From NCBI GenBank assembly GCA_016283095.1, contig JAEEMG010000002.1:1-64000 (forward strand): 64,000 nt of DNA, read 5' to 3'. Of the stretch, positions 11,905-64,000 are shown one piece after another. A program made the translations under genes and the position numbers. This DNA is from Paludibacteraceae bacterium (GTDB lineage: Bacteria > Bacteroidota > Bacteroidia > Bacteroidales > Paludibacteraceae). Under the pieces are notes generated by a model. It saw nothing but the letters and a program-made list of their open reading frames with translations, was not told the DNA's origin and searched no databases. Positions within the stretch are counted from its first letter, which is position 1. The number at the start of each line of letters is the position of its first letter.

Positions 11905-14900
11905 TTACATTGCAACCGTCACATATCCATAATGTTTCTGACCTATTGAATCCGTCACAATATAATAATATGTGTCAGGGGTAATTTTTCCGTTAGGCAA
12001 CACACCATTCCATCCGTCTGCTCCCTGATAAAGCATTATCCCATGCCTGTCCTTTATCTCCACATGATATCCCTTCATAAAGTGATCATTTATCATATCC
12101 CCGTTTGGAGTAAAGGTGTTTGGAATTTCGAACTCTGTTTCTATTGTTGTGTGAAGACGCAATTTGCATCCATCTTTTGTCTCTACCACTGCCACCGCAG
12201 AAAAAGACATAGCATCATCAACATTAAAAGTATAGTTGAAACTTTGTTGCGAAGATGTTCCTCCGTCGCTCATCAGCCAAATGAAAACACACTCATCCAA
12301 ATCATCCTCACTGTCCAACGACAAACTGATCTCTGAATCCCCACGTCTGATTTTAGCCGGTGTGGCTGAAATAGAAACAGTTGGCACTGGCAATTCTTCA
12401 ATTTTGAAATCAATCCGCTTTTGACAACCATACCCATCCTTACCTATAACATATCCATTACCTGCCTCCGTGAAGAGACATTCATCTTTGTCACTTCCGT
12501 CACTCCATACATATTCATCCGCTCCTGCAACCCCAATCACGACATTCTCGCCAGGACATATTTGGTATTTTCCTGTCGTTATCATATCCGGGATATCATT
12601 ATATATCAATTCAGTAGACGCGGATGATACGCATCCATACTCGTTTATTGCGACTACTTCATATTCCCCACTTTGTGTCACATCTATCTCCGCTCCTTCT
12701 TCTCCTGTGCTCCACCTGTATTTGCACTTCAAATCAGATATAGCAGTCAACCTTGCATATTGTTTATTGCAGACTGGAGTTTCCGCTCCCAAGATTTCCA
12801 CTTTAGGCAAACTTCTCTGATTGATTACAAACTGTTTATGGCCTCTGCAACCATTCTTATCAACAACAGAAACTGAATATTTTCCGTGTTTGGCGAACTC
12901 AAATTCTTTAGAATTAGATAATGTATCTCCGTTACTTTCATCAATCCACGTAGATTTAACTACATTGGATTTCAGCAAAGTCACCATTGCCACATCACCC
13001 GAATCTTCACAAATATCAAAATCTCCATCAATTATCACATCGTCCATATCATACTTATGCACAACTGTTTCAGCCATGTTACTTGCACATCCATTCTCAT
13101 CTTTCGCAACCACAAACAATGTGCAAGTGTCTGTCACATACACAGATGAGTCTTTCTTCCCATTACTCCAATTGTAATCAACAAGTTTAGATCCAGACTT
13201 CTGCAATACAGTCAGTGCCGCCGTTTCACCGTCGCAAATATGCATTTTTCCTATCACATCTATTTTTGGTCTCGGCAGCACTCGGACATCAAATGAAGCA
13301 TTTCGGCATTCCCCATTGTTGAGACAAACCGACACCTTATATATACGGCTCTCTTTCGCATATATCTCAGGTCTTCCTCTGCCATCATCCCAAATATAAT
13401 AATCTCCACCAGAAGCTATCAACAGTACGCTGTCTCCTTCACACACCGTAGCTCTGCCATCAAAACTTTCGTTAATAAGGGGAACGGGAACATCTATCTC
13501 CACCACATCCTTAGACGCCACATTTGAACATCCTACACTATCAGTACCAATCACTGTATAGCGTCCTCCGTGTGTGATTTCAATAGACGGTACTGTCCTT
13601 TTCTCCGTTCCCCAACCATACGTCTTACCTCCTGTTGCAGTCAGAACCGCAGTTTCCCCACGTCTTAACGTATCATCTCCAACAATGGTGATTTTCGGCA
13701 AACCATATTCTTCAACCTCGATTGTATCCCCATTTTCACAACCGAATTTATCCGTTGCCACGACGGAATATATTCCTCCACTATAAACCGAAATTTCATC
13801 ATCCGCCTTTCCATTACTCCATTGCAAACAAATAGTTTCGTCTCTAGCGGTATCGGAAGCAACACCTATAGTCAATGCTTTCAAAACCAACGAGTCTCCT
13901 TCACACATCCACCTATTTCCTGTAATCTTCAAATGTGGTTTAATGAGCACATTTATATTAAACCAAACCGTATCTGAGATTCCATCAGGCGACGTTGACA
14001 CAACATAATGAGTTCCCGACTCTCTAAAAACAGCCTTTCTTCCTATACTTCCGTCACTCCAAACAAACGAATTAGAAACAGGAGCAAACACAGTAATCTC
14101 AGTCGAATCGTCTTCACAAATATCAAATTTACCATCGACAAACAATTCTGACGCGGTCACTCTAATTGCAGCATGATCAAAGCATCCGTATTCGTCAAAC
14201 ACTGTAACAGAATAGTTTGCATACATATTTATATCATTTCCATCTATTGTGATTTGAGATGAAGTTTGACGATCCGGCATCCACAAATAACGATAATCAG
14301 AGCTATCCGAATTAATTACATTTGCTGTAAGAGTTGCAGTTTGAGAAGAAGCGATCTGTGTTATTCCCGAGATTTCCACCATCGGATTTCTACGTTGTTT
14401 CACATAATGATACACTGTATCAGAACGACAACCCATATTATCATAACCGACAGCCCAATATACACCAGTGCTATCCACAGACATTGTTTTTTTAGCACTA
14501 CCGTCGCTCCAAATTATATTTCGACATTCCGTGCCATTCGCCACCAGTTCTATTTCTCCGTTTTCACAGACAAAAGAATCTCCGGAAATGGACAAAAATG
14601 GAGACGGAGACTCCTTGGCATACACTGAATCAACAGTCGTACAACCTAACGAGTCCGTCGCCTCCACCACATAAAAATTTTCCGCATTATCAAGATGAAT
14701 GTTGTTTTTTATCAAACTTTTTGTCCATTTTAACTTCACACCTTCAGAATGTATCACATCAAATGATACAGAATCTCCTTTGCAAAACGACTTTGTCTTG
14801 CCATCCGCAAAATCCAATTTTGGCAAAGTTGCCCTTGTCACTTCAAAATCAGCAGTGTCAGACACACATAAGCCATTATATCCGACAACCGTATATTTTC

Positions 14901-17900
14901 CGGGACGATAAACCTCTATTTGTCTGGCAGTATCACCAGTGTTCCAATGCAGACGATCACATTCCGCAACGTCTACAACAAGCGTCGCACTGTCATTCAT
15001 ACCACACAAATATCCCTTTCCTTCTATTTCCAACTTAGGTAAAGAAACCTTTTGGACATTCACTATATATGTATCTGACGGACACCCAGCCGAATCATAA
15101 CCGACAACCAAATGATTTCCCTCTACATCTGTAGACGTAGTGTTCCCAGCCAAATTTTCACCATCCCATGCAAAAGAGACCGCATCTGTTGAGAAAAACT
15201 GTATATCGGCTATGTCACGTTCACAAAATGACACTGTGTCTGGAGCTGACAACAACGGTTTTCTTCTCTCACGCACCGTCATCTCCGCATACGCCTTGCA
15301 TCCGAAACTATCTAATCCCACCACCGTCACCAAGCCAGCATGAGCATAATAGAATGGAGTATCAACAGCCTTATTGTCCCAATAAAACTGTTGGAAATCA
15401 CCATTCACTGATAAATAGGATAAAGAGTCTACACAAACCTCGGACCTTCCGAAAATTTGTATATTAGGACTATTTAGTATTAAGCATTTCGTTTTTGACG
15501 AGACACATCCATTCGTGTCTGTTGCAGTACACATATATGTTCCGGCAGTGTCGACGACGATGGAATCTCCGGCATAGCCATTTTGCCAGACGTAGGAAAG
15601 CATTGATCCAGACTGTGCGACAAGTGTAGCCGTGCTATCCGCACAGATAACATCTGCTGATTGGATTTCAAACTGTGGCAGTTCATGAATCACCACGTCA
15701 GCAACCGCTGTGCCGACACAGCCAAACGAGTCTGTTGCCGTGACCTCCACTCTCCCACTCTGCTTCACAGTTATCATCGGTGAAGTGTCGGATGTGCAAT
15801 TCCACGCATATCTGACGCTTCCATCCTGAGCTACAAATGAGGCTTCGATTGTCAGACTATCACCTTCACACGCCTCTAAATTCGAAGAGGTGATCGAACC
15901 AACTGGGAGATCCCTCACCACGGATTCCACCTTATGGTTTGTACGGCATCCAGACAAACTATCAGTCACCACAACAGTATATGTTTCTGCTGAAGTAAAA
16001 GAAAAAGTAGAGTCGGAAGAGCCGTCTGGCCATTTGAACATACATTTTTTATCCGTCTCCAAAGCGATCATTCCCGCTGTCGGTCCGCACGCAGGCTTCA
16101 CCACATCCGTAATAGTCGGTTTGACTGCCAGTTCCACTTTCACTTTGGCAGTATCGCTGCATCCGTTTGCTGTCGTTCCGACAACCATGAAAGTACCCGA
16201 ACTTGAGGCTCTGTACTTATTACTGTCAGAGCCGACTTTCTTTCCCAACTTGCTCCACTGATAATGATCCGCACCATTCACAGTGAGCGTAACTGTGGAG
16301 TTTTCGCAAAGAAGCTTCAACGTGTCACCTTTCAACTTTGGTGCAGAATTCACCACTACAGAAAAATCCTTGCGTGTCTCACAATTGTGAGAGTTGGACA
16401 CCACCACCTGATAATCACCGCTCTTCTTCAACACTGCCAGAGAATCCGAGTCAATCACCTTTCCATTCGCGTCGACCCAAGAATATCTATATTTTGTGTT
16501 GGAACGATTATCCACTTCGACCTGCAACACGCTTCCTTCATTCTTGCAAAACGACAAATCTCCGATCAATGAAATCTCCGGATAAGGCAAAAACTCCACA
16601 TCAGTATATGCCTCACTTACACATCCAGTGACAGGATCCTTCACCTGTGCACGATAACGACCTGAATGGGAAATATTTATAGTAGTAGACGTGTTTCCAA
16701 AAATAGAATCTGGGGAGATCCAAAAAAATTCAGAGCCCCGAGTAACAGTACAACTAATGGCCTCCTTATCCCCTTCACAAGGGATTACAGATTCTAGAAA
16801 AATAGTAGGGCTCTGAATTTCTGTTATGTGGAATACAAACTCTTTACTTTTACAACCATTTGATGTATAGCCAACGACACTATAGTCACCTTCTTTAGAC
16901 AAAGCATATTGGCTTTCGCCTGTACCGAAACTCATACCGGATCCATTCCATTCAAAAAAGGTAAGGTCAGGTCCTTCAGCAGAAAATGTAGTTTGGTGGC
17001 CGCTGCAAATCTCAGACACAAGGTTTGGAATTGTCACGTCAGCCACAGAATCAATAGAAGTAATGACAACCTCGCTTGATGATTTGCACCCATCCACCGT
17101 CTTCACCGCCACACGATATCTATCCTCTTCCGTAACCGTTATTTTCTTATCATTAGAAAAAGGGACACCACCTCTGCTCCACTCATAAGAAACGATCTGA
17201 GATTCCTTCAAATCATGATCCGCTGAGATTTCCGTTTCGACGGTGCCAGGACAGAATGCTGTGACACCCCCAAATTCGATGTTCGCACTCATCTTCGGTT
17301 TGATGGTGAAATGCAATGTGTCACGACAAACATTCCTGCCGATCGTTTTTGTGCCGACCACATAATAGTCACCACTTGCAGAAAAGGTCGCTGAATTCGA
17401 AGTCTCACCGCCAACCCATTCGTATGAATCCATATCAGAAGCAGTCAAAGTAAGAGACTCACCAAGACAAAGGCCATCATTTCCAGAAATAGAAGGGGTA
17501 GGCGACGGAATGACAGACGCGTCAACCGTTTTAGTGCAACCATAGGCTGTGGCAGTCAACGAGTACAAGCCTGCGACCGTAGTTGAAAAAGACTCTTCAG
17601 TGGAAACTTCCGCACCGTCTTTCTGCCATGATAAATCAGCTGGAATTTTTCTTGTTCCCTGACGTACTACAGCTTTCAAAGTAGCAGGATCACCATTGCA
17701 AAGTTGGGATTTACCCTCGTCTACACGAAGCGTCCATCTCGGCTCATCCTTGATTTCGATTGTTTCTGTCACTATGTTACCATCCTTAAGAGTGATCACC
17801 GCATCGATGGACATTCCAGCATAGATAGCAGATATTGAATATGCAAAAGACGGGAGTTTATTCCCATTCTGTTGAAATTCAACACTTTTAACATCAGAAT

Positions 17901-54797: not shown

Positions 54798-55766
54798 TCA
54801 GTTCTCTAACAAGGTGTTCACAACATCCTTTGGAATCTCCATAAATTCAGCAATTTCCGAAATACTTCGTCCTTTTTTCTGAAGTTTACGAGCCATAGAA
54901 GCAAGCTGTTTCTTCTGTTCCGCCAATTGTTCTTTCTGTTCCGCCAATTGTTCTTTCTGTTCCGCCAATTGTTCAGCCTGCATTCTTATTGTCAGATCCT
55001 TATTCTTCAATTCACCCAAGATTTCATCCTCCAGTTGCATTGTCCGTCGAATATCTGAATCACAGGCAGCACCTTTTAAAGTACGTATCACCTCCTGCAT
55101 CTCTTCGTCACCAGAATACCGATCTTCATCAATAGAAAGAAAATGTCTGTCACTTGTTTGCTTCGACTGGTTTATTACCTGTAGCAATTCTTCAGCACGG
55201 TTTCTGATATGGTCATTTGGCAAAAGCGGCACCTGTACTATTATACTGTCATGAGTCAATGATTCAGCAAATGGATCCAAGACATCGAGTTTTTTACCAT
55301 TATAATCACGATATTCTCGGCTAATATAGCAGACACACTCATTTATCACATCCAACTTGTGACCAAGGATATATACAGAAATCATCGGATCTGCAGCCTC
55401 CCTGACTGTATCGTATTTCACTGGATGCACCATGTTAGGATTACAATAGTGAGTGCCTGTGTATTGGCGGAAACGCAATATCTCACTCGGCAGATATACC
55501 TTCTGCAATTCTATCGTGATCACACTCTCCTTCACTTCCACTTTTCCATCTGGAAGCGTAATTTCCTCACTGACAGTGGCTCCAAAATCTATACGACAAA
55601 TTGAAAGATCATCCGAGACAGGAAGATTATATTCATTGTTCAACTGTACAACCTTGACCACATTCTTCTTCAACAAGGCTGACAATAAAATCTTAGCCAC
55701 TTTTTCATTGGCTATCATGTACTTGAATACCGAATCGTATATCGGATTTGCTATTAATGTTGACAT
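54798..55766 (-). CDS. Rpn-family PD-(D/E)XK nuclease (transposase-like)
   Basis: 322 residues from MSTLIANPIYDSVFKYMIAN; the frame is open eight codons more but would start upstream of the predicted transcription start. N-terminal nuclease fold with FKYMIANEKVAKILLSALLKKNV, ICRIDFGATV and ITIELQK (PD-(D/E)XK with E-x-Q-K). The middle region is helical. A near-perfect heptad repeat (LAEQKEQ three times) forms a coiled coil, and the end MEIPKDVVNTLLEN is the usual Rpn C-terminal helix. Rpn proteins promote RecA-independent recombination and are often variable between strains. Confidence 0.9.
   Translation of the reverse strand: MSTLIANPIYDSVFKYMIANEKVAKILLSALLKKNVVKVVQLNNEYNLPVSDDLSICRIDFGATVSEEITLPDGKVEVKESVITIELQKVYLPSEILRFRQYTGTHYCNPNMVHPVKYDTVREAADPMISVYILGHKLDVINECVCYISREYRDYNGKKLDVLDPFAESLTHDSIIVQVPLLPNDHIRNRAEELLQVINQSKQTSDRHFLSIDEDRYSGDEEMQEVIRTLKGAACDSDIRRTMQLEDEILGELKNKDLTIRMQAEQLAEQKEQLAEQKEQLAEQKKQLASMARKLQKKGRSISEIAEFMEIPKDVVNTLLEN
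54909..54971 (-). repeat. 21-bp tandem repeat inside the Rpn gene
   Basis: Three 21-bp units start at 54909, 54930 and 54951 (TTCTTTCTGTTCCGCCAATTG, first unit two changes), encoding the heptads of the coiled coil. Slippage here would change coiled-coil length by whole heptads. Confidence 0.9.
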
Positions 55767-55787
55767 AATCCTATTTTTTTGTTTTTG

Positions 55788-55818
55788 CAAAGATAATGTT
55801 TTTTCAATTATCTACAAA
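55788..55818 (-). promoter_or_regulatory. promoter of the Rpn-family gene
   Basis: Minus strand: TTTG (55818-55815), 19 nt, TATCTTTG (55795-55788), 22 bp before the ATG at 55766. It fixes the start. Confidence 0.8.
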
Positions 55819-55915: not shown

Positions 55916-56854
55916 TTATTTCTTTGTTTTGAATGTCAATGCATTGGCTGCGATTGTCGCCACAGAACCATTTATTATAGGAAGGTTTCTGTCGACATGA
56001 CCGAACGGGATATCAAACAGGATTGGGAAATCATAACCCTTGGTCACATTGAAGATCAGGTCTTCGATACTTCCAAACGAGCTGTCGATATCGGTGTCTG
56101 TGAACTTTCCTACCACCAAACCTTTGATGCGTCCGAACACTCCACTCATACGCAGGTTCTGCATCATTCGGTCGATCGAATACATTCTTTCGCCGATGTC
56201 TTCTATATATAGGATACCGCTTTGCTTTGTGATATCTAGTTCCGTACCACGAAGAGCGTAAATCAGACTCAAATTTCCACCAAACAATCGTCCTTTCACC
56301 TTATCCCTTGCCACACGGCTACGCTGATTATAAGAGAAATATGTCTGGCGACGGCGGACTCCCGTCAGAATATTCAATAATTCTTCCACTGATTCCGCAA
56401 CCTCAGGGTTTTCCGCATCTTTCTTATCTAATGTGGCATCATAACCTACAAATGCTTTCGCCATCTGTCCGTGAACAGAGCAGCATTTAGCCTTAGTCAG
56501 CAACGCTGCATGTAGAGCTGTGATGTCACTGAATCCCACAACAAACTTAGGGTTCTCTACAAACTTAGAGAAATCAAGGCGGTCAACAATACGAGTAAGA
56601 CCATATCCACCACGACCGCAGAGAATCACTCGCGTCTGAGGATCATCAAGTGCCGACTGCAAATCCGCTAGTCTTTCCTCATCTGTCGCCGAAAAACGAT
56701 GATGTTTACCTTTGGCATGCTCCGCGATCTTTACAGAGTAGCCCAACCGACGAATGGCAGCTGCCGCCTGCTCAATCACTTCGCCGTCTATAGCTCCACT
56801 TGGAGAAACAATAGTGACCAAATCACCTTGTTGCAGAAATTCTGGAAATATCAT
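55916..56854 (-). CDS. LD-carboxypeptidase (S66 family)
   Basis: 312 residues from MIFPEFLQQGD; the frame is open 62 codons further, but that part lies inside the DUF2062 gene and is not S66-like. Motifs: LVTIVSPSGAID, ILCGRGGYGLTRIVDRLDF, VVGFSDITALHAALL with the nucleophile Ser, LFGGNLSLIYALRGT, and the catalytic Glu/His regions IEDIGERMYSIDRM and IPFGHVDRN. Trims the terminal D-Ala of peptidoglycan tetrapeptides in recycling. Start overlaps the DUF2062 stop by 4 nt. Confidence 0.93.
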   Translation of the reverse strand: MIFPEFLQQGDLVTIVSPSGAIDGEVIEQAAAAIRRLGYSVKIAEHAKGKHHRFSATDEERLADLQSALDDPQTRVILCGRGGYGLTRIVDRLDFSKFVENPKFVVGFSDITALHAALLTKAKCCSVHGQMAKAFVGYDATLDKKDAENPEVAESVEELLNILTGVRRRQTYFSYNQRSRVARDKVKGRLFGGNLSLIYALRGTELDITKQSGILYIEDIGERMYSIDRMMQNLRMSGVFGRIKGLVVGKFTDTDIDSSFGSIEDLIFNVTKGYDFPILFDIPFGHVDRNLPIINGSVATIAANALTFKTKK

Positions 56855-57336
56855 TGTTGTTGTGTTTTTCTTCGGAGCAAATGTAATAATAAAAAACTGA
56901 TTATGTATGCAATAACAGCAGAAATTATTGCTAATATTATCGCTCCCACAAAATAACACTTTCCACTTGCAAGCATAATTTCCAATGAGATACCGTCCAT
57001 TGAAATCGACGGAACATCGTCGAATATCAGACTTCCACACAGATATGAACCATACAAAATCCCGACTATCATCGGAGGCAAGGATATGTTAGACGTTGCT
57101 AAAACCACCAGTCTGTTTAAACCAAAAAATTGAGCTATCGCGACACCAACCATCATCTGGAATCCCCATATCGGAAGTATTCCGACAAGCACACCGACAG
57201 CTATCGCAGCCGCCACTTTTTCATTGCTCTCATGCTTGATATCAAAATCCGACGTGAGGAATTTCTTCAGTCGCTGCTTCCACGTCAACTTCTGAGTCGT
57301 CTCCTGATTGCTATTCTGATCATTTTCCGCACACAT
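56851..57336 (-). CDS. DUF2062 membrane protein
   Basis: 161 residues. WKQRLKKFLTSDFDIKHESNEKVAAAIAVGVLVGILPIWGFQM is the DUF2062 opening; membrane segments at about 42-62, 75-95 and 128-158. DUF2062 is often fused to a family 2 glycosyltransferase in Bacteroidota; here the transferase is the separate upstream gene, overlapping by 17 nt. Function unknown, probably membrane partner of the transferase. Confidence 0.9.
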   Translation of the reverse strand: MCAENDQNSNQETTQKLTWKQRLKKFLTSDFDIKHESNEKVAAAIAVGVLVGILPIWGFQMMVGVAIAQFFGLNRLVVLATSNISLPPMIVGILYGSYLCGSLIFDDVPSISMDGISLEIMLASGKCYFVGAIILAIISAVIAYIISFLLLHLLRRKTQQQ

Positions 57337-58060
57337 ATCTAAACAGTTTTTTAGGCCAATAGTAGAACAATGCTCCCGTACATAGTACAGTGTTCATGAC
57401 AGATATTCTTGAGAAATCTGCGAATGGACGGAAATGTGTGACTCGCTCGCCGACAGGTGCATAATAGACTTTGATCGGGGCAGTCTGGATATCCACGTCA
57501 GCCCAACATAATCTCACAAGCATCTCCAACTCTGCTTCATAACGGCTCGAGAAAATATGTCTTTTCACAATCTCCTTCAACGGATAGACGCGGAATCCAC
57601 ATTGAGTGTCAGGAAGTTCCCTTCCCGTCTCCACCTTAAACCAGAAATTCGAGAATTTGTTTGCGAAGGTATTTTTCGACGGCATGTTCTCCTGCGTAGT
57701 GATATTTCTCACTCCACACACCAATGTCGGTTTCTCGTCCGACACTTTTGCTATCAAAACAGGGATATCATCAGCGAAGTGTTGTCCATCAGCGTCTAAA
57801 GCCACAGCATAATCATAGCCATCAGCATAAGCTTCCGCAAAACCTGTGGTCAGAGCCTTACCTTTGCCGCTATTCACAGACAAAGTGAGGATTTTTATTC
57901 CGTCTTCCTGACTGCTTAATTCCGACAAAACAGATTTTGTCTCTTCATCACTGCCATCATCCACAACATAGACTCTATCAACAAACTGTGTCACAGATTT
58001 TGCAACTTCACTGATTGTCTTGGAGTTGTTGTATATTGGGATTACAGCACAATATCGCAT
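57320..58060 (-). CDS. family 2 (DPM1-like) glycosyltransferase
   Basis: 246 residues. MRYCAVIPIYNNSKTISEVAKSV, VYVVDDGSDEET, NSGKGKALTTGFAEAYADGYDYAVALDADGQH (DxD), then QCGFRVYPLKEIVKR and RYEAELEMLVRLCWADVDIQTAPI. Dolichyl-phosphate-mannose-synthase-like: likely moves a sugar to a lipid carrier, or to the lipid product of the neighbouring genes. Aryl-polyene clusters usually include such a gene. 10 nt after the lipoprotein gene. Confidence 0.92.
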   Translation of the reverse strand: MRYCAVIPIYNNSKTISEVAKSVTQFVDRVYVVDDGSDEETKSVLSELSSQEDGIKILTLSVNSGKGKALTTGFAEAYADGYDYAVALDADGQHFADDIPVLIAKVSDEKPTLVCGVRNITTQENMPSKNTFANKFSNFWFKVETGRELPDTQCGFRVYPLKEIVKRHIFSSRYEAELEMLVRLCWADVDIQTAPIKVYYAPVGERVTHFRPFADFSRISVMNTVLCTGALFYYWPKKLFRYVCGK

Positions 58061-58070
58061 AGACTATATA

Positions 58071-58697
58071 TTACTGATATAGAGTGATTTCCAAACCTAA
58101 TCGAGGATGTGATATGAGGATTGCCTCATCTGAGTAAGAAAATTCAGCTCGTAATGGACCTCCAGAAAGACTGACATGATTAAGTCTTCTGGTATCATTG
58201 TCGATCACGTAGCGTGCCTTACCAGTGGCCGTACGAATTTTGTAGCCAAGCTTTGTTTTTGCCGGCTCTTTATATTTTTTCGCTTTGAATGTGGAATTTA
58301 CGTTGCGGGTAAACAACGTAACAAGATCTTTTTTCAGAATATGTTTGATTATAGGGCGGTCGAGCTGCTCCATACACGAATTGACATCAAAACCACGATC
58401 TTTGATAGTGAAGTCGAACAGTGTCATTCCCATGAACGCAGTGCATACGACGTGAATACTCTCGTTGTCCTCCATCGTCGCAACCATGAAGCCGTTCATA
58501 CTCAACTCCTTATAAGTCAGTGTCATATTATACATGACACTCTCTCCGCTTTGAGACAGAAGCGGATAAAGGTCATTACGGTTGTATACGCCTGATCCTG
58601 CTGTCTGCATAGCAGAAAAGTGTTTGTCCGAGCATCCGCTTAGAGAGAGGATGCACGCACAAACACATAAAAAATACTTTTGAACTCTTTTAATCAC
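58071..58697 (-). CDS. lipoprotein resembling DUF3261-type proteins of aryl-polyene clusters
   Basis: 208 residues. Lipobox at ILSLSGCSDKHF (Cys22). The mature part is a beta-rich domain: MYNMTLTYKELSMNGFMVATMEDNESIHVVCTAFMGMTLFDFTIKDRGFDVNSC, ending LRAEFSYSDEAILISHPRLGLEITLY. Length, lipobox and position after a LolA-like gene match the small lipoprotein of aryl-polyene clusters. The assignment is inference; the sequence itself is too diverged for me to be sure. 6 nt after the LolA-like gene. Confidence 0.65.
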   Translation of the reverse strand: MIKRVQKYFLCVCACILSLSGCSDKHFSAMQTAGSGVYNRNDLYPLLSQSGESVMYNMTLTYKELSMNGFMVATMEDNESIHVVCTAFMGMTLFDFTIKDRGFDVNSCMEQLDRPIIKHILKKDLVTLFTRNVNSTFKAKKYKEPAKTKLGYKIRTATGKARYVIDNDTRRLNHVSLSGGPLRAEFSYSDEAILISHPRLGLEITLYQ

Positions 58698-58703
58698 CGT
58701 ACT

Positions 58704-59366
58704 TTACTGTACTTTAAAAACCGAATCATCAATTGCGGTATTACGCTTCATGTTGGTGAATGTAAACTGCATGTAGTCACTTTCTTTGTTAGCTTTTGGT
58801 TTGTCCACCATCTTGAAGCTCACAATTGTGTAATCTGCCTTTGTCACTACAACCTCCATATGGTCTGCACGAGAACCTGCCTTTGGAGTGACATACACAA
58901 GATACTGAGAATCATTCTCATACAAATCAAGTTTGATGTCCTTAGAATTTGTAGGAAGCTGACCTGACAAACAATCTGACATCATCTTTTTCAAGTTTGC
59001 AATAACCGGATTTGAATTCGCATCCATCACTGTTGGACGTCCACCGCTCACCATCTTGATTTTTGAACCGTTAACAATGATCTGTGACGGCATAGGCTTC
59101 TTGTAATCCAAAGATAGCTTGTCATCCTTCTTGAAACAGAACTCTCCTGACGATACGATATCCTTTGTCATACCAGAAATATGCTTTGTCTGAACGAAAT
59201 CACTTCTCAATGTTGTCATCGACTTAGCAGTTGAAAGCATCTCGTTTCTGAATTTTTCCATAGAAGAAGAAGCCTTGAAACCAGCAGGAACCTCTGCAAA
59301 CACAGAGCCTACAGACATCATCATGGCAATAACGCCAACTGTGATATTTCTAAATAAATTCTTCAT
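58704..59366 (-). CDS. LolA-like outer-membrane lipoprotein carrier family protein
   Basis: 220 residues. Signal peptide (about 1-24, ending SVFAEV), then the LolA fold: MTTLRSDFVQTKHISGMTKDIVSSGEFCFKKDDKLSLDYKKPMPSQIIVNGSKIKMVSGG, typical of periplasmic LolA-like proteins. It would carry a hydrophobic molecule across the periplasm. Being next to a ketoacyl synthase pair, its cargo may be the polyketide/fatty lipid of this operon. 15 nt after the deacetylase gene. Confidence 0.9.
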   Translation of the reverse strand: MKNLFRNITVGVIAMMMSVGSVFAEVPAGFKASSSMEKFRNEMLSTAKSMTTLRSDFVQTKHISGMTKDIVSSGEFCFKKDDKLSLDYKKPMPSQIIVNGSKIKMVSGGRPTVMDANSNPVIANLKKMMSDCLSGQLPTNSKDIKLDLYENDSQYLVYVTPKAGSRADHMEVVVTKADYTIVSFKMVDKPKANKESDYMQFTFTNMKRNTAIDDSVFKVQ

Positions 59367-59381
59367 GTTTTTCTATTTAAT

Positions 59382-60098
59382 TTAAAATTGCCCTTTCTTT
59401 TTATTCCTCAGACGGTCCATCATCTCTTCCAACGGTACAACTCTATATCCGTTGGCGTAGAGCCAGTCTAAAATCGTCTCCAAAGCTTCCGGTGTGTGTG
59501 GCATCCTATCATGCAACAGCACCAAAGAACCTGGTTTGATTTTGGAAATCACTCGTCTGCTGACCTCTTCCGCGTTTTTTGCCGATGTATCAAATGGCCT
59601 TACATTCCATCCGATGACATCAAACTTGAATTTCTTCAATGCGATAGCCAGCATCGGGTTGGTGACTCCCAACGGAGGTCGGAAAAAACGGGGCTCATAT
59701 CCTGCATATTTTTTTATCTCTGCCTGACATTGCTCTATCTCTTTCCTCATCCTCGAGGGCAAAAGTAGGGAAAAATTATCGTTGTGATGAAAAGAATGAT
59801 TGCCTAATGTGTGGCCAAATGTTATAATTTGTTTAAAAACCGTACAATTTGGCTCAATTTTTCTTCCAATACAGAAAAATGTAGCCTTGACATCATACCT
59901 TTTCAATATTTCCAACACTTTTTCAGTAGTGCCCGATTCAGGACCATCATCAAACGTCAAAGATACTACTTTTTCATCACAATTCTTGATTCCACAAAAT
60001 GTTTTTACATAAATCCCCGACGATATGTCGGCAGCGGACCAAACCAAAAATGCAAGAATCAATATTATTATGACAACATAAATCATCACCGTCAGCAT
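59382..60098 (-). CDS. polysaccharide deacetylase family protein (NodB-type)
   Basis: 238 residues. Membrane anchor at about 5-24, then the NodB domain: VVSLTFDDGPESGTTEKVL (first Asp pair), TLGNHSFHHN (metal His), FFRPPLGVTN, IGWNVRPFDTS and VLLHDRM. Metal-dependent deacetylase, probably periplasmic-facing. Start overlaps the stop of the chain-length-factor-like gene by 7 nt. In this operon it may deacetylate a sugar headgroup or a wall polymer. Confidence 0.9.
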   Translation of the reverse strand: MLTVMIYVVIIILILAFLVWSAADISSGIYVKTFCGIKNCDEKVVSLTFDDGPESGTTEKVLEILKRYDVKATFFCIGRKIEPNCTVFKQIITFGHTLGNHSFHHNDNFSLLLPSRMRKEIEQCQAEIKKYAGYEPRFFRPPLGVTNPMLAIALKKFKFDVIGWNVRPFDTSAKNAEEVSRRVISKIKPGSLVLLHDRMPHTPEALETILDWLYANGYRVVPLEEMMDRLRNKKKGQF

Positions 60099-60940
60099 TT
60101 TTTCAATACAATCACGCTTATCTCATGTCCGTATCTGTGCTCTATGGCGACGTGAGTCTTCCCATCAAACATGCAGAATTCCAACATCCGTGCCGCCATT
60201 GCCACACCAAAAGCTGATGCTGTGGCATACTCACCACACCATCTCTTATAATCAAGTATCTCAACATCCGCTGTCGAGATATGCAACTCAGCCAACGCTG
60301 TCTGCACATCTACACCACATTTTGAATAGACTATCTCTGCCAACGCTCCCGTCTTTTCAGAAGAAAGAATCATGGCAGTCGAGCCTTCACCATATTCTCC
60401 AGAAGCCGACAGATTGAATTTTCTCAAAACTGATTCCGACAATTCCGTCTTCTCATCCGATGATACATATAATATATTATCAGCATCTCCTGAGAGTTTC
60501 ACCTGTGCGTATCTGAGAGCGTTTGCGACAGTGTCACCACGATTCACAAACGTGATATTTGGTATATGCGTAGATTTCAATTGTGCGATATTGCCAGCCA
60601 AAGTGTTGAACGTGCTCTGGATAAAGGCGGTCGGGTTACCAAGCGTCTCACCACTCGTATAAATAGTGTCGAGCATCTTTTCTGTGTCCGATATTGATCC
60701 GAGCGACGTTGCGGTGAGCATCATATCCACATCTGTGTCTACAAGACATTTCATCGCGACATACGTGCCCATCTTCAGCATTCTGTTCATTCGTCTGCGT
60801 AAATTGGCATTAACAATCACCTCCTTATAGTCTGGTTCTACAGCATTGAAGGAATTGGCGGCGAATGAATTCAGATTCAAATTTTCTCCTAAATCACCAA
60901 TTGGAGAGACAGTGGACACTTTTTTTATATAGCAACTCAT
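60092..60940 (-). CDS. ketoacyl-synthase-like protein without catalytic Cys (chain-length-factor-like)
   Basis: 282 residues, shorter than an active synthase. The sequence follows the N-terminal ketoacyl-synthase family of the PF13723 type: NANLRRRMNRMLKMGTYVAMKC and PTAFIQSTFNTLAGNIAQLKS, where the normal STACSSS Cys position holds QSTFNT. No Cys at the nucleophile position, so it should act as the non-catalytic partner of the upstream synthase (a KS-beta). The start overlaps its stop by 4 nt (ATGA). Confidence 0.85.
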   Translation of the reverse strand: MSCYIKKVSTVSPIGDLGENLNLNSFAANSFNAVEPDYKEVIVNANLRRRMNRMLKMGTYVAMKCLVDTDVDMMLTATSLGSISDTEKMLDTIYTSGETLGNPTAFIQSTFNTLAGNIAQLKSTHIPNITFVNRGDTVANALRYAQVKLSGDADNILYVSSDEKTELSESVLRKFNLSASGEYGEGSTAMILSSEKTGALAEIVYSKCGVDVQTALAELHISTADVEILDYKRWCGEYATASAFGVAMAARMLEFCMFDGKTHVAIEHRYGHEISVIVLKKC

Positions 60941-62121
60941 ACTCTCTTTATTATTATGGATGTCGCGCCTCCGCCAAATCCGAATGAATTAGTCATTATA
61001 TATTCAAGTTCAGCCTTCTCCATCTTGCAGACGGGAGTCAGCCTCTCCACTTTTTCAAAATTGCGAGTCGGAAGTATTGTCTGTTTTTTCAGCATTTCTG
61101 CCGACAATGCCAATTCCAACACTCCACACGCGCCAAGAGTGTGGCCCGTCCAGAATTTTGTGGAACTGAATGGAGGCACGTTTTCTCCGAAGACATTGAT
61201 CATCGCGATCGATTCCGACTCATCATTATTCGGAGTAGCAGTGCCATGAGCGTTGACGTAGCTGATTTTATCCGCGTCGACACATGCCTTCTTCAGGGCA
61301 GCTTTCATGGCAAGTGTAGGTCCGACCGCATCCGGGCTTGTGGCAGTCTGATGATAAGCGTCGGAAGCTGTCTCACAACTCAACATCTCACACAACGCAG
61401 GAATATTTCCATCCGCTGTCAGCATCACACTTGCCGCACCCTCACCAAGGTTCAATCCGTCTCTGTCGGCATCAAATGGTCGGCAGACATCCTTGCTCAA
61501 TATACCTAGTGAGTTGAATCCGTTTATTGTGAACTTGCACAATGGATCCACACCCATACAGATGGCGAAATCCACGTCGCCACATTTCAGCATATCCATT
61601 CCCACACCTACCGCCACAGCAGATGATGAGCAAGCCGTGCTGATAGTTGAGCTCCACACAACATCAGCCCCCTTGTTTTTAAGAATATCACATACATGTT
61701 TGGTGGAATCAGCCGGTTCATGACCTGCCACAAGAGCGATGTCAGCATCTCCATTAGCTGTATAGTCACGATAAAAGATCTCACTTTTATCCATACCGCC
61801 TGCAGTGGTGGCATTGACAACCACAACTTTCTTGCCAGAGACAGATGGAGCCGACTGCAACAAGTCAGCCACTGTAAGCATTGAAAGCAAAGCGGTTCGT
61901 GTATAAATACGTGAAGGCAGCACAACATTATAGTTGTCTGCCAACATACGTTCTATTTCTTCGTTACTGAATGGGATCTCACGCAAAGGTATCTCGTGTG
62001 CGGTATCTGTGTATTGCAGTTTCTTTGCCGAATAGTCAGCGTTTGCAATATCATCAAAACATTTGCCGACTCCTATCCCCGACACACTTACGATGCTACT
62101 CGCACAACAAAAGATCTTCAT
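60937..62121 (-). CDS. beta-ketoacyl-ACP synthase (FabF-like)
   Basis: 394 residues with an intact catalytic triad: Cys164 in TISTACSSSAVAV, His292 in VNAHGTATPNNDESE, His327 in WTGHTLGACG. Also PFDADRDGLNLGEGAA and MTNSFGFGGGATS. A type II decarboxylating condensing enzyme that, with the chain-length-factor-like neighbour and the ACP, would extend an acyl or polyene chain. 12 nt after the ACP gene. Confidence 0.93.
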   Translation of the reverse strand: MKIFCCASSIVSVSGIGVGKCFDDIANADYSAKKLQYTDTAHEIPLREIPFSNEEIERMLADNYNVVLPSRIYTRTALLSMLTVADLLQSAPSVSGKKVVVVNATTAGGMDKSEIFYRDYTANGDADIALVAGHEPADSTKHVCDILKNKGADVVWSSTISTACSSSAVAVGVGMDMLKCGDVDFAICMGVDPLCKFTINGFNSLGILSKDVCRPFDADRDGLNLGEGAASVMLTADGNIPALCEMLSCETASDAYHQTATSPDAVGPTLAMKAALKKACVDADKISYVNAHGTATPNNDESESIAMINVFGENVPPFSSTKFWTGHTLGACGVLELALSAEMLKKQTILPTRNFEKVERLTPVCKMEKAELEYIMTNSFGFGGGATSIIIKRV

Positions 62122-62133
62122 TTCCTGTTTCTA

Positions 62134-62388
62134 CTACTTATTGTCGGAAATGAACTGTGCGATAGTGCGAACACTTGTGAATGCCTCCTTTGCTTTCTTA
62201 GGATCAGTAATCTTGATTCCATACTTTTTCTCAATCAAAAGAATGATTTCAAGTGCATCAATAGAGTCAAGACCGATACCCTCGTCTCCGAAAAGAGGTT
62301 CATCAGTTCCTATCTCTTCAGGTTTAATATCCTCAAGCGACAATGCTTCACACAATTGCTCCTTCAAATTTGATATCAATGTTTCCAT
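62134..62388 (-). CDS. acyl carrier protein
   Basis: 84 residues, acidic helical bundle with the phosphopantetheine Ser42 in IGLDSIDALEII. The rest (MIRTIAQF-type C-terminus, here SVRTIAQFISDNK) fits the ACP fold. This is a dedicated ACP next to its synthase. 21 nt after the beta-helix protein gene with no terminator between, so it may be expressed with it. Confidence 0.93.
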   Translation of the reverse strand: METLISNLKEQLCEALSLEDIKPEEIGTDEPLFGDEGIGLDSIDALEIILLIEKKYGIKITDPKKAKEAFTSVRTIAQFISDNK

Positions 62389-62409: not shown

Positions 62410-64000
62410 TTACTGTTCTACTGCACCAGGTGTGACAGAGTCCGATTTTCTCTGGGCTCCTGTCTGGTCTGTTTCTACCGAGCACTCTGGGCAAGACGCT
62501 TTAGTAACATTAACTTTCGGCAACTCCTTAACAAGTGTCAACACAGGAGTATTGCTGTTACCAAGCTTAATATTTGAGAATAATGTTTTGAACTCTTCAT
62601 GATCAGCCGGACTTACAGGTTGAGAAACACCTGTAAGATCTGCCTTGGCCTGTCTGTAGCCACCATTCACATCGGCGTTTCCTACAGCCTCAACAATACA
62701 GTTTGAGAATTTTACATTTCCCTGCTCAAAGAAGTATGGTCCACACATCGTGCTATGGATGACGTTGAGCGAAGGATGACCGCCCGTCATTCTTATTGTC
62801 TCGACTCCAACAAATCCATTGTTGATACAAGAGTTGTTGAACATCGTACTGTTCACAATATTGATTGACGGTGCAGAATTTGCAGTGTAGATCACCGCAC
62901 CTCCATTCTTCACCGAAGTATTGTCGGAGAATGTAGATCCGCAGATTGTAATGTGAGACTTATTGCCTTTATTCACCACATTCAAGAATGCTCCGTTGGC
63001 AGCCTTGTTTGAATAGACATAACAAGAGTTGACAATAAATTTAGATGTCTCCGCGATATTCATGAATGGAGCGTTGTTTTCAGACCAGCATCCGCTCACC
63101 AAACAAGAATCAAGTCGGACTGAACCTCCGTTCATTGTGATGAATGGGTTGATTCCATTCTCTGGTCCTACAAAATGAACAGTAACAAATCTCCAATCTT
63201 TATTTGAAGACGAGAATGTCGCAAACTTACCCTTTTCGCTATGAGCAAGGATTCTTGTTTCAAATCCAGGATCTGATGGTGTACGTTTGTGGGCACGTTT
63301 AGCGCCCTTGATAGGAGACGATCCATAACCACCAAGGATTGTGACGTTGCGAAGATCACCAAGCGTCAAACCTGCATCTTTCTGCAAAGCATACTCACCT
63401 CCTGCAACATGGATTGTCGCCGCAGCGTCTGCACCATTCTCTTTTTTATATTTAGTCACAGCAGCGACCGCCTTCTCCAAAGACTGGAATGCCTGATCCC
63501 AAGTAGTGCCAGCGAAATCATCGCTACCACCCTTGTCCTGCGTCTTCACATAGAAAACACCAGGCTCCTCACAGACATCAGACACACGGATCTCATTACT
63601 TGAGATAGTGACATAGTTGCCAGAGGCATCCATACCCTTGACATCCAACCAATATGTTCCGATTGGAGCGTTCTTCATCGTGCTGCTCTTCTCATTTGGA
63701 AGATCATTATAATTGTCCACCCACTGGTACATAGCGTTTGTCAGACCAGAGATTGTAGACTTGAAAGATGCTCTTGTATTCTTATGGTCAGGGCATCCAT
63801 GTTCCGTGATCTCAATCACAGCTGAATAGTCAGCGTCACATGCACCGAATGTACTAGAGATAGAAGAACGCTGAATTCCACGCTGATCTGTTGGCGTCAA
63901 CTTATGAGGAGCACCTGCCTGACCCACAATCTCAAGTTTGTTGCTTGGCATCAACACCTGTGTGATACCTCCACGAGACGACAACTTAGATGCGATCGTA
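62410..64000 (-). CDS. beta-helix surface protein, 5' part cut by window edge
   Basis: At least 530 residues. The frame stays open to the window edge; the apparent start at 63984 is a TTG in the middle of it, so the true start is outside. The N-terminal visible part has an Ig/PKD-like module (IEITEHGCPDHKNTRASFKSTISGLTN, YWLDVKGMDASGNYVTIS). From about residue 150 a right-handed beta-helix domain follows (VTILGGYGSS, INIVNSTMFNNSCINNGF, CIVEAVG) and the C-terminal pattern DQTGAQRKSDSVTPGAVEQ is typical of choice-of-anchor Q beta-helix proteins. Probably a surface or secreted adhesin. Confidence 0.8.
   Translation of the reverse strand, partial: TIASKLSSRGGITQVLMPSNKLEIVGQAGAPHKLTPTDQRGIQRSSISSTFGACDADYSAVIEITEHGCPDHKNTRASFKSTISGLTNAMYQWVDNYNDLPNEKSSTMKNAPIGTYWLDVKGMDASGNYVTISSNEIRVSDVCEEPGVFYVKTQDKGGSDDFAGTTWDQAFQSLEKAVAAVTKYKKENGADAAATIHVAGGEYALQKDAGLTLGDLRNVTILGGYGSSPIKGAKRAHKRTPSDPGFETRILAHSEKGKFATFSSSNKDWRFVTVHFVGPENGINPFITMNGGSVRLDSCLVSGCWSENNAPFMNIAETSKFIVNSCYVYSNKAANGAFLNVVNKGNKSHITICGSTFSDNTSVKNGGAVIYTANSAPSINIVNSTMFNNSCINNGFVGVETIRMTGGHPSLNVIHSTMCGPYFFEQGNVKFSNCIVEAVGNADVNGGYRQAKADLTGVSQPVSPADHEEFKTLFSNIKLGNSNTPVLTLVKELPKVNVTKASCPECSVETDQTGAQRKSDSVTPGAVEQ

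Follow-up and report, generated by a model that had tools for sequence, protein, structure and literature searches.

A run of nine genes on the minus strand of a Paludibacteraceae contig raises the question of which product it helps to make, and where the remaining genes for that product lie. The run fills positions 55916–62388 of the window, i.e. the whole stretch of 64,000 nucleotides (nt) that was analysed, which corresponds to bases 1–64000 of contig C95 in G000, a metagenome-assembled genome (MAG) of 3.69 Mb that is in 103 contigs and 99.9% complete. Its nearest relatives are Bacteroidales MAGs filed under Paludibacteraceae, such as Candidatus Scybalocola fimicaballi. An initial annotation had read the run as an aryl-polyene/flexirubin-like operon of unusual composition, lacking several pathway genes. 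From homology, we consider it very probable that the run is the module for chain elongation and for delivery to the outer membrane in a flexirubin-type (flx) aryl-polyene pathway, the rest of which lies in at least five other places of the genome. Pathways of this kind are known from bacteria, where they make yellow pigment lipids. All nine genes named in that annotation are present, with families matched by Pfam and NCBIfam profile searches using the cut-offs of these collections, and the module is indeed incomplete in the window, the genome supplying the rest.

The elongation genes come first in the run. The acyl carrier protein (ACP; 62134–62388, 84 amino acids) carries the attachment motif GLDSIDALE, scores 37.3 bits with PF00550 (cut-off 20.8) and 73.9 with NF006617 (cut-off 70), and its gene adjoins that of the ketosynthase in most relatives. 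The ApeO-like ketosynthase (KS; 60937–62121, 394 amino acids; PF00109/PF02801) contains its Cys and His residues in the motifs TACSSS, HGT and TGHTLGACG, and its best sequence matches in the PDB are the ApeO proteins of A. baumannii (7f28_B, E 1.6e-52) and X. doucetiae (6qsp_A, 9.9e-49). It is followed by an ApeC-like chain-length factor (CLF; 60092–60940, 282 amino acids; PF13723, 41.4 bits, cut-off 25), from which the KS nucleophile Cys is missing, in all 27 of the aligned homologues. A phmmer search of the PDB with the CLF sequence gave nothing significant; profile and fold searches did give matches, and the CLF model (predicted local distance difference test score, pLDDT, 86) matches structures of KS–CLF complexes, including ApeC (6qsp_B). 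A physical KS–CLF pair is further supported by fusion of the two into a single polypeptide in several genera related to this one, as well as in G251, a divergent member of the genus. Such fusions are seen at L175:83-2074, L178:11258-13465, L179:11174-12898 and L189:6679-8304. The KS and Cys-less CLF expected of an flx-type aryl-polyene pathway are both present, and a pair of the ApeO–ApeC type is reported to suffice for a full-length polyene, with the FabB-like ApeR increasing throughput (PMC8358021).

The run also encodes dedicated lipid carriers. LolA2, a periplasmic lipid carrier with a signal peptide (58704–59366), scores 49.1 bits with PF03548 and 141.6 with the flexirubin family NF053544 (LolA2_flexi, cut-off 125). 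The adjacent LolB2 lipoprotein (58071–58697; lipobox LSGC), with an ApeN/DUF3261-like role, has no Pfam match and scores 74.6 bits with NF053540 (LolB2_flexi, cut-off 60); the first structure match of its model (pLDDT 87) is E. coli LolB (1iwm). In the aryl-polyene (ape) system, the dedicated delivery system consists of the LolA-like ApeL, the LolB-like ApeN (DUF3261) and the RND protein ApeM (PMC8253772). By analogy, LolA2, LolB2 and an MMPL exporter encoded on another contig (45.7 bits, cut-off 20.5) are the predicted occupants of these three places. The earlier proposal that an aryl-polyene or flexirubin-type lipid is moved to the outer membrane is, at the level of homology, well supported; LolA2 and LolB2 both score above the flexirubin cut-offs.

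A search of the genome located the functions that the window lacks, as the initial annotation had advised: aromatic starter enzymes, ketoreductase, MMPL exporter and, as weak-scoring candidates, the dehydratases. The tyrosine ammonia-lyase (TAL) FlxA lies on C66 (NF053541, 848.3 bits, cut-off 700; methylidene-imidazolone (MIO) motif ASG at 140), the 4-coumarate-CoA ligase FlxY on C96 (NF053551, 648.1 bits, cut-off 520), and the ketoreductase FlxB on C99 (NF053542, 398.3 bits, cut-off 340) together with a Lip_A-type acyltransferase. Both FlxA and FlxY have been characterised biochemically (PMC3992019). One block on C18 encodes TetR, a FabB/ApeR-like KS, a second ACP, a FabZ-like dehydratase, a YbgC/FadM-type thioesterase, a FabA/ApeI-like protein, the 1025-amino-acid MMPL exporter and a CrtI-type FAD oxidoreductase. 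On C1 there is a KS of 559 amino acids that resembles the accessory KS of complete clusters in relatives; a VanW-like gene lies beside it (L007:7943-8767; 202.6 bits, below the cut-off of 365). Five flexirubin equivalogs (LolA2, LolB2, FlxA, FlxB and FlxY) therefore exceed their curated cut-offs. The idea of an incomplete pathway was rejected, since the genes absent from the window were located on these other contigs.

The pathway genes of G000 are thus spread over six contigs (C95, C18, C99, C66, C96 and C1), i.e. at least six places, and the neighbours of each piece are unrelated. Clustering, which is usual for such pathways and not strictly defining, is absent here and also in the close relative G252 (30 contigs), where the KS run, a C18-type block, FlxA and the accessory KS occupy four contigs with unrelated flanks. 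FlxA and the fused KS–CLF of G251 share a contig and are about 13 kb apart, separated by unrelated genes. An assembly artefact was rejected as the cause of the scatter: unrelated genes flank the pieces within their contigs. The one exception is the C18 block, which stops 0.2 kb short of a contig end but is internal in G252.

Comparison with relatives ties the pieces together. The run order is found again in other genomes of the genus, and is therefore not due to chance. In our comparison of 80 named loci, 74 of them from outside the genus, the order ACP–KS–CLF–deacetylase–LolA–(LolB) is repeated many times outside the genus, where the run from ACP to LolA is often clustered with FlxA, FlxB, acyltransferase, dehydratase, GT2, MMPL and FAD oxidoreductase genes. 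Across 61 related genomes, which are not independent and for which the KS thresholds were set by hand, FlxA exceeded its cut-off in 21 of 24 KS-positive and 2 of 37 KS-negative genomes. Within the genus, the KS occurs in 8 further genomes (53–98% identity), and FlxA is above the cut-off in all 9. The gene identities, active-site motifs, co-occurrence and scattering are direct observations.

For the reactions, their order and the product we infer the following scheme from homologues. FlxA would convert tyrosine to 4-coumarate, which FlxY would activate. This starter would be extended by the KS–CLF pair and ACP of the window, aided by the FabB/ApeR-like KS and second ACP of C18. FlxB would carry out the reduction and the two dehydratase candidates of C18 would take off water, with no enoyl reduction, giving a conjugated polyene that the C18 thioesterase could release as the acid. 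The acyltransferase, GT2/DUF2062 and the membrane-anchored deacetylase may attach the acid to a glycolipid-type anchor or tailor that anchor, and the MMPL exporter, LolA2 and LolB2 would transport the product to the outer membrane.

The composition of the run is less unusual than the initial annotation had held, and this part of it turned out to be largely wrong. The FlxP-type polysaccharide deacetylase (59382–60098; PF01522, 110.9 bits) has an N-terminal hydrophobic segment and all of its catalytic motifs (TFDD, HSFHH, RPP and LLHD). Most of the 74 loci from outside the genus contain it, at a position conserved in relatives, and it is listed among flxP–flxU as one of the likely export genes (PMC3992019); it is a standard member of the pathway. 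The GT2 glycosyltransferase (57320–58060; PF00535, 89.9 bits), which resembles polyprenyl-phosphate sugar transferases, shares 40–49% identity with its counterparts in flexirubin-type clusters of other genera. Fusion to a C-terminal DUF2062 is the rule among relatives (26 of 29), whereas DUF2062 here forms its own reading frame for a membrane protein (56851–57336; PF09835, 79.8 bits) overlapping GT2 by 17 nt. The idea that DUF2062 and the deacetylase are odd additions was rejected, both being usual in relatives' loci. The sole outsider in the run is the S66 LD-carboxypeptidase (55916–56854; PF02016/PF17676, 125/107), so that the suspicion once cast on peptidase and deacetylase alike holds for the former. 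It retains its Ser/Glu/His motifs, has no evident signal peptide and adjoins the run in all genus loci that reach far enough (L023, L025, L026, L028 and L188), and in none of the 74 non-genus loci. It is probably a genus-specific passenger with a presumed role in murein recycling; a second S66 gene lies on C61. Tight packing with overlaps of 4–17 nt applies to four of the eight junctions (4, 7, 17 and 4 nt), the others being gaps of 6–15 nt (12, 15, 6 and 10 nt).

Several observations weigh against the proposed pathway. The KS scores 270 with the subfamily PRK09185, below the cut-off of 407, and the CLF is short compared with the about 340 amino acids found in other genera. The two C18 dehydratase candidates, in the expected places, are weak matches (FabZ 50.5 against a cut-off of 113; ApeI-like 23.2 against 28.5; FabA 24.1, just above 23). 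The KS–FlxA co-occurrence rests on the hand-set thresholds and related genomes described above. Two short reverse-strand genes lie between CLF and deacetylase in L023 (12082-13260), and apparently also in L025 and L027; they break the run there, so that one mRNA is not guaranteed. One of the two genes inserted in L023 resembles a family of small secreted proteins that has several copies on C92 of G000 (L010:980-5004 and 12521-15264), with an N-terminal motif of roughly TDMVVKQKNGEIxRFxVxxV.

The scattered loci, the shortened CLF, the separate reading frames of GT2 and DUF2062 and the inserted genes of L023 could together be taken as signs of a relic, i.e. a broken-up and decaying pathway without product. 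We regard this as quite unlikely, as every gene of the run is open with intact catalytic motifs and the set, including KS and FlxA, is kept across the genus.

With an flx pathway as the preferred reading, it can be asked whether its product would be a flexirubin. Flexirubins proper, i.e. polyene esters of a dialkylresorcinol (DAR), are defined by DarA and DarB, and G000 appears to fall outside that definition. DarA gave no match in this MAG in a search made without a positive-control genome, which also counts among the points against our interpretation, and the best hit of the DarB profile (5.7e-5) is at FabH level, full-length true DarB reaching 1e-142 or lower. With neither DarA nor DarB detected, the pathway probably yields an aryl-polyene lipid that lacks the dialkylresorcinol, and not a true flexirubin. 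In L030 (7523-21172), from a Paludibacteraceae rumen MAG, the same module is followed directly by DarA and DarB in a full flexirubin-type arrangement.

Such arrangements, and the DarB matches at E 1e-90 or better in 23 of 36 LolB2-positive Bacteroidales genomes, would favour a complete flexirubin pathway whose DarA and DarB were lost to an assembly gap. The MAG is nearly complete, however, the operon in the window goes on to GT2, DUF2062 and S66 at the spot of L030's DarA/DarB, and 13 of the 36 genomes likewise have no strong DarB, which makes this explanation very unlikely. Judging from these genomes, flx gene sets without DAR genes look common in Bacteroidales. Bacteroides ihuae, a control genome, has LolB2 and no DarB above the cut-off, and is likely the single control above the FlxA cut-off.

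It is very improbable that the nine genes form a separate envelope-lipid pathway, making another acyl product or an ordinary glycolipid with no link to FlxA/FlxY: the run is physically apart from the starter genes, and GT2, deacetylase and S66 could act in cell-wall or glycolipid chemistry, but the LolA2/LolB2 flexirubin equivalogs, the ApeO/ApeC-type pair, the co-occurrence with FlxA and the contiguity of the run's genes with FlxA, FlxB and MMPL in other Bacteroidota all argue against it.

Within the flx aryl-polyene pathway that we favour, a bolder and rather doubtful proposal is that, in this gut-dwelling genus, the deacetylase and GT2 make a lipid bearing an amino sugar, and that the acyltransferase joins the polyene to it. 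The outcome would be a new aryl polyene of glycolipid type in place of flexirubin, from a pathway working as at least six scattered transcription units without a resorcinol partner.

The genes on either side of the run are also found beside it in relatives. Upstream on the same strand, a gene for a secreted protein of 1534 amino acids (window 62410–64000, running on to C95 position 67014; L006:2411-7015) ends 21 nt ahead of the ACP start and has the same position in L023, L026 and L188; its product matched no Pfam or NCBIfam family above cut-off. The Bacteroidales promoter pattern TTTG-N17-22-TAnnTTTG had its sole match over the start of this gene, and none ahead of the ACP or the C18 block. 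The gene and the run may share a common transcript. Downstream of S66, a 330-amino-acid gene (54798–55790) without a Pfam match is kept beside the run in L023.

Two features lay beyond the reach of the initial annotation: the genes are scattered, and those for dialkylresorcinol are apparently lacking. Genome mining that looks for side-by-side aryl-polyene genes may overlook or misname such a scattered pathway. The genus offers a natural case for asking whether the pathway still works after its cluster has been broken up, and the gene set without DAR genes could help to define the outer-membrane anchor of aryl polyenes.

Among the closest known systems, the ape gene clusters described for E. 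coli CFT073, Xenorhabdus doucetiae and Acinetobacter baumannii (PMC8253772, PMC8358021) share the ApeO–ApeC KS–CLF, a FabB-like second KS, two ACPs, the LolA-like ApeL, LolB-like ApeN and RND protein ApeM, an acyltransferase and a glycosyltransferase, and their two dehydratases have weak-scoring candidates as counterparts in G000. These clusters differ in being contiguous, over 15.5 kb, in using a 4-hydroxybenzoate starter loaded by ApeH, and in having neither TAL nor deacetylase in Table 1 of PMC8253772; G000 has TAL and FlxY, which sets it apart from this proteobacterial type, ApeH itself not having been searched for. An arylpolyene gene set similar to flexirubin is known from gut Bacteroides (pBGC-12, B. 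xylanisolvens; PMC12940132), sharing the flx-like type and the gut Bacteroidales host, and is reported there as a cluster. Our literature search, of partial coverage, found no report of a scattered flx pathway in Bacteroidales. Also among the closest known systems are two flexirubin clusters, flx in Chitinophaga pinensis (Cpin_1853-1877; PMC3992019) and that of Flavobacterium johnsoniae, with counterparts here for FlxA, FlxB, FlxY, the KSs, thioesterase, deacetylase, acyltransferase, LolA, GT2 and exporter, and candidate counterparts for the dehydratases. In contrast to these, the G000 genes are distributed over at least six contigs, DarA/DarB were not found, GT2 and DUF2062 are separate, and S66 is extra. 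Some splitting is already known from C. pinensis, where dar and flx are two loci. The scattering is the unusual feature of G000, which adds a conserved, scattered version of the flx pathway and not a new system.

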